A stretch of DNA of 64,000 nucleotides from Phaeodactylum tricornutum CCAP 1055/1 (Eukaryota > Bacillariophyta > Bacillariophyceae > Surirellales > Neidiaceae): NCBI RefSeq assembly GCF_000150955.2, contig NC_011681.1:295501-359500 (forward strand), given 5' to 3'. Of the stretch, positions 13,290-27,284 are shown one piece after another. A model generated the notes under the pieces. It had not been told where the DNA came from, did no database searches, and saw only the letters and a list, made by a program, of their open reading frames with translations. Each line of letters starts with the position of its first letter. Positions within the stretch are counted from its first letter, which is position 1. A program made the translations under genes and the position numbers.

Positions 13290-14516
13290 TTATTTTGGAG
13301 GGCTTTGCTTCCCTTGCATTAAAGAGTTGACCTGTTTCCGTAAGCGATCCTTGAGTTCCTGTTTGTTGCCACTGGTTTTCAACCCTTGCGATTTAAGAAT
13401 ATCCTTGAGGCGTTTAACTGTAAGTATGTCGATTGGATCGTTTGCATCCTTGGATACCCGTACTTCTTGTGTAGGCTCATCCAGTGACACCCGGGCACTA
13501 TCCTCGGCAAAAGCAGCCCGAGTAAAATTCCGCGTCTGTTGCACGAATGTTTTGTTCGTTTCTTTGTCAACGTGCACTGGAATTGTGTTATGCCAAGGCG
13601 AAGTGGTGTCCAAAAAAGGTATTTTAGTTGACGGCATCCTCTCTTCGCCACTGCCGCCAATCTCATCCTCGTAGGGCTTTGAGAGTCGTTCTAGCTCGCC
13701 TATCTCGTTTGTGACATATTCTGTTCCGTCTGCTTGCTGAGTGACCTCTTCGTCTGACAAATATCCCGCTTTGGTCAGTTCATCCATATTTTTTTGCGTA
13801 AGATTCATTCCCGATGAAAACATGGTCTTATCCACCATACTCATGTCGATATTGTCAATATCGACCCCCAATTTTGCTGCATATTCACGAACATTGAGCT
13901 TCTCTGGCTCATCGTATTTTCGCTCTAACACTTCTTCCGTATCATCTACGTAGATACCCTTCCAGTCATAGTCAACAACTTCAAAGTCATCCTTCGGCGT
14001 ACGGACGATTTTTTCAATCGTTACCGTGACTTGCCGTTGGGCGAAGTCGTCCTGCAAGTCCGAGATCACCCAGTAGGTGCCGTCCAGGTTAACCTTTCCG
14101 CGTAGTTTGCGAGAGCCATCGAGTAGAACAATCGTTTTGGATCGATCTCCATTGCTGCCTTTCTTGGTCTCGGATTTGTATCGTAAATCAATTGACCTTC
14201 CCGTTGGTTGAAAAATAATGTTTTTGGCAACAACGTCAGCAGGGACAGTGACGGTGACGTCGATTTCAAATGCTTCTTCTTTCCAGGTGTAATTTGTTGC
14301 AATTCCATAGCCGGAGAAAAGGCGTAACGAACGGCAAGAGCATTGATTTGATACTAATGGTTGCAAAAGGGAGTTGGGGCTAGCCCCACTGATGGTCCGA
14401 TGTTCATACCTGACTGTGATTAAGGATAGAAAGGCCACCGCCCTTTCCAAAAATGTTCCTAAAAAGAAGCAAGATGCCAGAACAGGGACCGTTACAGTCT
14501 TTCTCGATCTTTTCAT
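13290..14516 (-). CDS. Plastid-targeted CS-domain and SAP-domain protein
   Basis: 408 residues. The N-terminus is a signal peptide ending RAVA|FLS, the diatom plastid pattern. Residues about 70-185 read as a p23/NudC-like CS fold (YTWKEEAFEIDVTVTVP, YWVISDL, VTVTIEK). A disordered acidic linker follows, and residues about 360-400 form a SAP helix-extension-helix (LTVKRLKDILKSQGLKTSGN, KQELKDRLR), a DNA-binding motif. CS folds usually act as HSP90 co-chaperones and SAP modules bind nucleic acid, so a plastid nucleoid or chaperone role is an inference. It is convergent with EXO70, 57 bp apart. Confidence 0.78.
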   Translation of the reverse strand: MKRSRKTVTVPVLASCFFLGTFLERAVAFLSLITVRYEHRTISGASPNSLLQPLVSNQCSCRSLRLFSGYGIATNYTWKEEAFEIDVTVTVPADVVAKNIIFQPTGRSIDLRYKSETKKGSNGDRSKTIVLLDGSRKLRGKVNLDGTYWVISDLQDDFAQRQVTVTIEKIVRTPKDDFEVVDYDWKGIYVDDTEEVLERKYDEPEKLNVREYAAKLGVDIDNIDMSMVDKTMFSSGMNLTQKNMDELTKAGYLSDEEVTQQADGTEYVTNEIGELERLSKPYEDEIGGSGEERMPSTKIPFLDTTSPWHNTIPVHVDKETNKTFVQQTRNFTRAAFAEDSARVSLDEPTQEVRVSKDANDPIDILTVKRLKDILKSQGLKTSGNKQELKDRLRKQVNSLMQGKQSPPK

Positions 14517-14659
14517 AATGTTCTGTAGACAGTATTATTAAAGAAAGGGAAACTTTGTACAATGCCGGTTGGATTCAATTGACAGTGAACAGCTTTTGTT
14601 CATTTTCACCTCAAAGACAGTAGTAGTGGCTGGAAGCAAATGCAAAAGACCTACCTACC

Positions 14660-14770
14660 TGTCAAGATATAAGTGAATATGCTTGATATACCTTAAATGT
14701 GACGAGGTCAAACGACGTGATTTGGGGATAGCGCTCCGTGGTTCAATTCCATGGCACGTTAATTTTGACA
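14660..14770. repeat. Left terminal repeat of the small LTR element
   Basis: 111 bp, identical base for base to 15006..15116. It contains GGTTCAATTCC, similar to a pol III B box, so a tRNA-related origin is a second reading. Confidence 0.75.
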
Positions 14771-14820
14771 TGGTAACGTCCGGGAGTTCGATACCCGATT
14801 TGAAAAAGTCTTGATTTGCC

Positions 14821-14986
14821 GACACCTGACCTGGGGTGGATAAAGAAGAAAGGGGTAGGGGTCATCTCCTAAGTGGGGAGGATGGCTCAGGGGCAAAGTA
14901 ACTTGTCGACACCTTACTCGGGTGGATAAAGAAAGGAGGGGCAGGGGTCATCTCCAGCGTGTGGGGAGGATGGCTCAAGGGCAAAG
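14821..14986. repeat. Imperfect tandem pair inside the LTR element
   Basis: Two copies of about 79 bp (14821..14898 and 14908..14986) share GGTGGATAAAGAA, GGGGTCATCTCC, GGGGAGGATGGCTCA and GGGCAAAG. They make up most of the interior of the element. Confidence 0.7.
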
Positions 14987-15005
14987 GAATATCAAGCAGG
15001 GAGGA

Positions 15006-15116
15006 TGTCAAGATATAAGTGAATATGCTTGATATACCTTAAATGTGACGAGGTCAAACGACGTGATTTGGGGATAGCGCTCCGTGGTTCAATTCCATGG
15101 CACGTTAATTTTGACA
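15006..15116. repeat. Right terminal repeat of the small LTR element
   Basis: 111 bp, identical to the left repeat at 14660..14770 and immediately followed by the second copy of the target duplication. Confidence 0.75.
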
Positions 15117-15325
15117 CCTACCTACCTTTGCACAACAAGTACATTCACCACAAAATTTCCCAGGATAAGGATGCGCAGTATTCATGTAAAATTTGATTGG
15201 CCCACAGAATCTTGATCCTTTGGGAATCACAGATTCGCTGACTGCGCCTTCGTTCCTTTGTGGACATCCCAGGTTCCCCAATGAGAATATTCCACTTTTC
15301 CTTCAATTGTCTCATATATTTTACC

Positions 15326-26336: not shown

Positions 26337-27284
26337 ATTCACAGAATCACAAGCAAAGGGGCTTTACAGTTTACGCAAAATATGATACCAACTACCGTCA
26401 CTATTGACTTTTACAGTTAATGTAAGCCAATCTCTCTGCTTTAGAAGTTGAGTAGTATCAAATACCTGTCTAACTCCAGGTAGCAGCAGAATACTTGTGA
26501 TGAAATGACCGGTCGTCATGTGTCCGTATGTCAAAATTAAAGTGCCGTAGAATTACACCACGGAGCGCCCTCACCGAATCGCGTCGTTTGACCTCGTCAC
26601 ATTTAAGGTATATTTATAGCTAGCATACTCATTATATCTTGACATCCGTAATGCTGGAGTCGAATCAAAAATGGATTGAAAGGATGACCGTCGTACTCTG
26701 ACGTGGAGAAGAAACTTACAGAAAGTTACAACTAATATAGGTCGTAGGAAGAAAAGATTCGTAATTATGTCATAGACCATTTTGACAAGGATACGATCCA
26801 GAGCTAGCAACGAAGGAATCAGGAGCCACATTTTACAGTTTCTTTCAGAGATTTCGTTCTCGTCGCTAGAGTACAATGTATTGAAATCAAGCAATTATAC
26901 TTTACAAAGTAAAGCAACGTTTTTGATCATCGATAAACTGAGGTAGCGTCATACTCTATACACTGGCTCTCATCGCCGCAAACAGCTCAATTAAAATTTA
27001 TTCCGCAAGGAATACAGTCTGGGTACCCGCTTCCAGTGCCAGCACTGTGCGCTTGTGTGGAATGTAAAAGCCGTACCGTATCAGCAAATGAAGCTTGCTC
27101 AAGGAAAGCCGGAAAAGGTAGTTGAGAGCAAACCAAATCAAAACAGGTTGACGATTTCCGTGGCTACGAGGCGGAGCTGACGAAACATTCCTTCAGTGCA
27201 GATTACAGATGCTTTCTCCAAGATCTGCTACGACTTTTGAAGTCAACTTTACTTTCTACACATCCGCCACTCTTGTATTTGAAA
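26337..27284. other. Intergenic region containing a solo LTR
   Basis: 948 bp. It holds the solo LTR at 26529..26644, the motif TTTACAGTTA at 26410..26419 and two one-base variants (26363, 26832). The remainder (26650-27284) shows only shadow frames. Confidence 0.5.
26529..26644 (-). mobile_element. Solo terminal repeat related to the element at 14660
   Basis: A 116-bp sequence on the minus strand is clearly related to the 111-bp terminal repeats at 14660 and 15006, but diverged. It is bounded by TGTCAA/TTGACA ends and flanked on both sides by TCCGTA (26523..26528 and 26645..26650). A single repeat with an intact target duplication is the usual product of LTR-LTR recombination. It is older than the copy at 14660. 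Confidence 0.7.

Follow-up and report, generated by a model that had tools for sequence, protein, structure and literature searches.

A gene-less 457-bp TRIM family in Phaeodactylum tricornutum and a likely Copia helper

At positions 14660 to 15116 of the stretch of Phaeodactylum tricornutum DNA analysed here (64,000 nucleotides, called the window from here on) lies a complete element of 457 bp that is bordered by two terminal repeats and carries no gene, which raises the question of what kind of element it is, how it was inserted, and which enzymes could have moved it. Working from the letters alone, an earlier note on this DNA had described identical 111-bp repeats with TG...CA ends within a target duplication, and this was borne out, as 14660-14770 and 15006-15116 form a pair of 100% identical 111-nt repeats with TG...CA ends, and CCTACC lies on either side of the element. 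Its description of an element without a gene, with a candidate primer site and a purine tract in the right places, also held: no open frame of more than 58 codons overlaps the 457-bp element (the 58-codon frame lies mostly in the flank), and both signals are correctly placed, with a primer-site match of 7 nt and one C among the purines of the tract. The features are given below in window coordinates.

14654..14659, no strand: left target duplication CCTACC.
14660..14770, plus strand: left 111-bp terminal repeat (LTR), 100% identical to 15006-15116.
14736..14754, with a second copy at 15082-15100, plus strand: T-arm/B-box-like hairpin CCGTGG-TTCAATT-CCATGG in the LTR, of putative function.
14771..14781, plus strand: putative primer-binding site TGGTAACGTCC, directly 3' of the left LTR, its first 7 nt complementary to the 3' end of tRNA-Arg(TCG).
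14771..15005, plus strand: non-coding internal region of 235 bp, containing two diverged repeats of ~86 bp.
14995..15005, plus strand: purine tract AGCAGGGAGGA, directly 5' of the right LTR.
15006..15116, plus strand: right 111-bp LTR, 100% identical to the left LTR.
15117..15122, no strand: right target duplication CCTACC.
26529..26644, minus strand: solo LTR of this family, older and 84% identical, bounded by the 6-bp duplication TCCGTA at 26523-26528 and 26645-26650.

Two divergently oriented genes flank the element: on the minus strand a frame that starts at 14516 and encodes SAP and CS domains, and on the plus strand a nitroreductase-like frame. The site itself is a CCTA repeat, so that the CCTACC duplication is readable as 6 bp or 10 bp and the longer reading also fits.

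The genome that holds the window (27,450,724 bases in 88 contigs) was searched with the element, a step that the earlier note had proposed for the repeat; places outside the window are written as contig and position. The search returned 31 matches, which grouped by position give 24 places, these match counts being lower bounds: five copies with two LTRs, three damaged copies that keep internal sequence, and 16 places with an LTR only, among which two pairs have common flanks.

Two-LTR copies: the window; C30:223312; C6:878896; C25:381633; C6:917567-919309.
Damaged copies with internal sequence: C1:833998; C18:256351; C3:1385065.

Besides the 457 bp of the window copy, the two-LTR copies measure 457, 543 and 551 bp, with a chimeric relative of 1,743 bp, and the copy at C6:878896-879438 has an additional internal repeat unit. 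Between the C30 copy and the window copy, one base in 457 is different. A second complete copy this similar, together with many repeat-only copies that have duplications of their own, excludes chance or a local duplication; the latter, which the earlier note had weighed, is rejected by the 24 dispersed places, since the sequence is neither unique nor free of duplications elsewhere. When the old C3 copy was used as the query, its 22 matches all fell at places already known. The joined flanks of 5 of the 10 prepared insertions were searched as well, and no contiguous empty site was found in the assembly.

Two observations concern individual LTR-only copies. At C87:15163-15328 and C27:382824-382989 the copy has an internal partial duplication of the LTR, with identical flanks on both contigs, and these are probably two versions of one locus. 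The sequence beside the solo LTR of the window (26480-26528) also adjoins the end of the truncated C1 copy near C1:834340 (L041), reading TACGGACACATGAC...GTCATTTCA, and is perhaps another repeat.

Target duplications were scored in 16 distinct insertions with both ends intact, comprising the five two-LTR copies and 11 distinct solo LTRs. Left out of this count were C9:20222 and C27, whose flanks are the same as those of C9:47874 and C87, together with C24, C19:401615 and C2, whose ends are not intact, and C1, C18 and C3:1385065, in which one end is lost or decayed. An exact 6-bp duplication flanks 14 of the 16; these 14 duplications are all different, and none has an exact 4- or 5-bp duplication. 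The remaining two (C13:458479 and C4) have one mismatch, and the C4 duplication, GAAGCT/GAAGCG at 6 bp, can alternatively be read as an exact 5-bp GAAGC with an extra T before the LTR. The 16 target sites have in common a weakly palindromic pattern, GTN[NACGTN]NAC, in which the brackets enclose the duplication. Its strongest column is an A at position 8 (13/16 sites, p 8e-6 uncorrected), a T at position 5 not being raised by itself (5/16). Leave-one-out site scores average 2.1 bits and are positive in 13 of the 16 sites, and mirror pairing is strongest about the midpoint of the duplication, at 0.321 against 0.188-0.295 on 23 other axes. The summed palindrome score was reached by none of 200,000 random draws, the consensus having been drawn from the same 16 sites. 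Integrases leave palindromic signals of this kind at their target sites, and the insertion signature is consistent with a DDE integrase that makes a 6-bp staggered cut.

An LTR retrotransposon makes each copy from one RNA, so that the two LTRs of a copy are identical at the start and carry the variants of their parent. We compared the 17 LTRs of exactly 111 nt among the 27 extracted: G54 occurs in both LTRs of C6:878896 and T32 in both LTRs of C6:917567, and each is absent from all the others. Private variants are thus common to both LTRs in two of the five pairs and to none of the other three, and such paired private variants are the mark of reverse transcription, with both LTRs of a pair coming from one template. 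They bear directly on another way of reading the family, in which the 111-bp unit is a short MITE-like DNA transposon with TGTCAA...TTGACA ends and a 6-bp duplication, and the 457-bp form consists of two such units around captured DNA. The excess of repeat-only places over two-repeat copies (16 to 5), the 6-bp duplications that the repeat-only places carry as well, and the inverted ends TGTCAA/TTGACA, which go beyond TG/CA, would all suit it; however, a composite would need gene conversion to acquire the paired variants at C6:878896 and C6:917567, and the primer site and purine tract are in the right positions, with a purine-tract junction that is that of a Copia family (see below). The paired variants largely refute the composite, which we regard as very improbable. 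As in LTR retrotransposons generally, the purine tract lies directly before the right LTR. The non-autonomous TRIM that the earlier note had proposed is supported by the structure of the copies, the 6-bp duplications, the variants paired in 2/5 copies and the solo repeats.

The same LTR pairs say less about age. Differences within the pairs number 0 of 111 in the window copy, 1 in C30, 0 in C6:878896, 2 in C6:917567 and 16 in C25. The description of the window copy as very young agrees with its 0/111 differences and with the single difference in 457 to the C30 copy, but 0/111 bounds the divergence at about 2.7% only (our own estimate by the rule of three); a 111-bp LTR pair is a poor clock, and great youth is weakly supported.

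The putative primer site is a recurrent part of the family, as the window copy and four of the seven other places with internal sequence (C30, C6:878896, C25 and C18) have TGGTAACG directly 3' of their left LTR. TGGTAAC, the first 7 nt of TGGTAACGTCC, complements the 3' end of the tRNA-Arg(TCG) gene (GTTA plus CCA), a short and weak match. Forty tRNA genes, read from 51 matches found, entered this comparison; among the four best matches shown, only that to tRNA-Arg(TCG) reaches the 3' end of the tRNA, and it is slightly outscored by a match of 10 nt with one mismatch inside tRNA-Thr. Allowing up to three mismatches, the primer-site 18-mer occurs at 20 places (9 in the reversed control), six of them TRIM copies and the other 14 with three mismatches, none of the 14 being at a tRNA place found in the genome. 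The primer-site pattern CATGGTAAC is found at 245 places, below the 305 of its reversed control.

Among the Copia elements of this genome, L044 (C9) and L052 (C47) have 14 and 15 nt perfectly complementary to the anticodon arm of tRNA-Asn(GTT), the primer sites of L045 and L046 are close to tRNA-Ile, and those of L047 and L048 gave no convincing match to the 40 tRNA genes. Internal tRNA priming is known in other Copia elements (PMC10886601, as far as its accessible text goes). We rejected CATGGTAAC as a Copia primer site: the two matches upstream of a Copia reverse transcriptase, among the matches listed, belong to an inverted pair. This pair, GTTACCATG...CATGGTAAC, is found in a Copia family at C1:1145166-1145191, C1:1151258-1151283 and C9:92040-92065, the two on C1 being 6,092 bp apart. 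By eye it recurs about 6.1 kb apart at C1, C3 and C9, and therefore lies in the ends of the Copia family, not at its primer site.

One two-LTR copy carries host sequence. The relative at C6:917567-919309 (L031:4068-5810) is 1,743 bp long, with LTRs that are 98% alike and the duplication TGCACG, and is without a primer site. The first 456 bp of its interior are 99.8% identical to C4:1174434-1174889; a single-copy stretch of ~1 kb follows, which has no other match in the genome and holds a 140-aa frame, and the final part is the terminal 42 bp of the TRIM's internal region. The frame gave no Pfam family above the cut-off and no relative in viral contigs, and it occurs once in the genome, if a diverged neighbour (36%) in another frame is left aside. 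This arrangement could have arisen by template switching before insertion or by gap repair afterwards.

An element without proteins needs a helper, and the earlier note had expected one in the genome. A specific candidate has now been found from the sequence at the junction between purine tract and LTR. The 27 nt at 14988-15014, of which 18 precede the start of the LTR and 9 follow it, match a Copia family with two copies, on C1 at 24/27 and on C7 at 25/27.

C1:314640 and C7:252091: copies of the candidate helper Copia family.

The last 9 nt of the purine tract (CAGGGAGGA) and the first 9 nt of the LTR are identical in the C1/C7 family, and the 14-mer formed by AGGGAGGA and TGTCAA lies 774 bp downstream of RVT_2, on the same strand, at both C1 and C7. 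As a control, the best of 126,870 other window stretches reaches 18/27, and the same junction in seven other Copia elements at most 13/27. In the C1 copy, RVT_2 lies within an uninterrupted frame of 1,447 codons, and the C7 copy has a stop. The common junction came to light in a purposeful genome search for eight purines followed by TGTCAA, a pattern that occurs at 152 places (156 in the reversed control). Exact AGGGAGGATGTCAA is present at at least eight places among the matches listed: four of the TRIM family, the two Copia copies (C1:316160 and C7:251304) and two more. These last two, C15:348172 and C18:18530, have no listed RVT_2 nearby and may represent decayed members or solo LTRs of the C1/C7 family. 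In the same list of matches, AGGAAGAATGTCAA recurs at C8:190537, C8:208212, C13:881974, C13:887020, C19:304217 and C19:306594, and is perhaps another repeat family.

The stretch common to the TRIM and the Copia family covers precisely the sequence required for second-strand priming and integration, and we consider the C1/C7 family the likely helper. Several points speak against it: the Copia LTR, of more than 380 bp, is unrelated to that of the TRIM past the first 9 nt, six other Copia elements have 4-5-bp duplications, two of these six differ from the TRIM in their tRNA-Asn anticodon-arm primer site, the 7-nt primer match of the TRIM is short, and the junction pattern is no commoner than its control. 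The six come from nine Copia loci that were fetched; their duplications, read by eye, are AATAC, TAAAG, TCGC, AACGC, AGTCG and CACTT, and at 4 or 5 bp they do not make these elements obvious helpers. Of the other three, L049 has no clear duplication, and L050 and L051 have no usable LTR pair.

A different helper, from another Copia group or a lost family, would leave the common 27 nt as a relic of shared ancestry. Such a history would agree with the sampled Copia elements, which showed neither 6-bp duplications nor a 3'-end primer site, and with the 278 of 289 plant TRIM subfamilies for which the accessible part of PMC4717578 gives no recognisable encoding relative. We judge it unlikely, as the matching 27 nt coincide exactly with the purine tract and LTR end, which the enzymes of an element have to recognise, the same 774-bp distance recurs in two Copia copies, and no Gypsy-type helper is apparent. 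The genome gave three RVT_1 matches, of which C7:935560 is LINE-like by eye, the others being C7:931954 and C13:547766. Two of the three thus fall within C7:931954-936189, where one is a 295-aa stretch resembling a LINE-type reverse transcriptase by eye; the accessible Phatr3 table lists putative SINEs as the only non-LTR elements (PMC5859163). A search of the genome for the integrase domain PF00665 gave no match, and is uninformative because even the Copia elements gave none.

The 457-bp element is therefore probably a TRIM that depends on reverse transcriptase and integrase supplied in trans, with the C1/C7 Copia family as the most likely source; the dispersed copies, the duplications, the variants paired in two of five copies and the common junction are direct observations. 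According to this model, TRIM RNA would be reverse-transcribed from a tRNA primer annealed at TGGTAAC, and second priming would start from the purine tract AGCAGGGAGGA. The linear DNA would then be inserted with a 6-bp stagger at the weakly palindromic sites GTN[NACGTN]NAC by enzymes that the C1/C7 family may supply, and LTR-LTR recombination within single copies would leave solo LTRs behind. The family may still be active at present.

How the RNA is made is a separate matter. Each LTR contains a B-box, GTTCAATTC, inside a 6-bp T-arm, and RNA polymerase III could make the genomic RNA by means of this B-box/T-arm-like hairpin, as proposed for Helenus (TRIMp3). The motifs, which were sought after the fact, also comprise a B-box 3' of the primer site, GTTCGATAC, and the A-box-like TGGCTCAGGGG and TGGCTCAAGGG. 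Two B-boxes arise in 0.35% of shuffles and a T-arm with at least 5 pairs in 0.65% of 2,000 shuffles, but two A-boxes arise in 5.7%, and here they are located downstream of the left-LTR B-box. Likewise, folding is better than in shuffles for the entire LTR (z -2.32) but not for the hairpin part by itself (z -1.14), and covariation is absent in the T-arm. The hairpin agrees with tRNA-Thr(TGT) at 15 of 16 nt; against this, the best tRNA alignments score 27 and 26, where the 95-99% levels of 200 shuffles are 26 and 28, and no Rfam tRNA model matches at the element up to an E value of 5. In addition, polymerase III could terminate within the left LTR at a TTTT close to its end. We consider transcription by polymerase III rather unlikely, and the hairpin-based resemblance to Helenus/TRIMp3 a lead only. 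Less likely again is a stramenopile TRIMp3 in the full sense, transcribed by polymerase III, using a Copia integrase with an unusual 6-bp stagger and able to carry host sequence. The Rfam search gave nothing relevant at the element; sub-threshold matches of the old C3 copy to SNORD14 (E 0.3) and drz-agam-1 (E 0.78) are taken as chance.

The helpers of TRIMs usually cannot be identified, since 278 of the 289 plant subfamilies are without an encoding relative (PMC4717578, accessible part). In this small genome a TRIM family occurs together with a candidate Copia helper. The two agree in exactly the signals for second-strand priming and integration and differ in the rest of their LTRs, which makes testable what a passenger must have in common with its helper. 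The 6-bp duplication sets the integrase of the TRIM apart from the six other Copia elements with readable duplications.

In P. tricornutum itself, the LTR elements are described as Copia type, with no Gypsy type, in the accessible text of Maumus et al. 2009 (PMC2806351), which also reports higher Copia RNA levels under nitrate starvation. The CoDi Copia elements of that study have TG...CA ends in 23 of 26 families, as the TRIM does, and are of the type of the candidate helper; unlike the TRIM, they code for proteins, are far longer and have the duplications TTCC and ACAAG (4 and 5 bp). The accessible part of the Phatr3 annotation paper (PMC5859163) names TRIM/LARD among the new classes for this species and gives 27 putative copies covering 7,291 bp, so that the kind of element was already known here. 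These 27 are possibly the family described in this work, with its 24 places, but they stand in that part of the paper as a count alone, with no structure, duplication, helper or sequence. The earlier note, which knew of no description in diatoms, must be corrected on the existence of these entries and stands as regards a described family; we found no description of a TRIM family in a diatom in the titles or abstracts of the literature searched.

Helenus/TRIMp3 elements (Kojima 2024, PMC10886601, accessible text) are likewise short and non-coding, with a primer site and a purine tract, and the fungal ones are also tied to Copia. They differ in their duplications, of 4 or 5 bp as against 6 bp in the diatom TRIM, and in an LTR that holds a tRNA-like piece, where the diatom LTR has a T-arm/B-box and no full tRNA-like sequence was found in it. 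The hosts named are fungi, animals and plants, and a word search of the paper gave neither "diatom" nor "stramenopile".

The closest likeness is to the TRIMs of Gao et al. 2016 (PMC4717578), as far as the accessible part of that paper describes them. The element has their size (457 bp, under the 1,500 bp without gaps by which they are defined, the 1,743-bp chimeric relative lying above it), their two LTRs, no retrotransposon protein and several copies, and its solo LTRs have differing target duplications as theirs do, of 4-6 bp. That it belongs with the ordinary TRIMs, a known kind of genetic parasite of which it is a new example, is well supported. Compared with the examples of that study, which have 5-bp duplications, it lives in a diatom host, makes duplications of 6 bp, and shares its junction with a Copia family that can be named.
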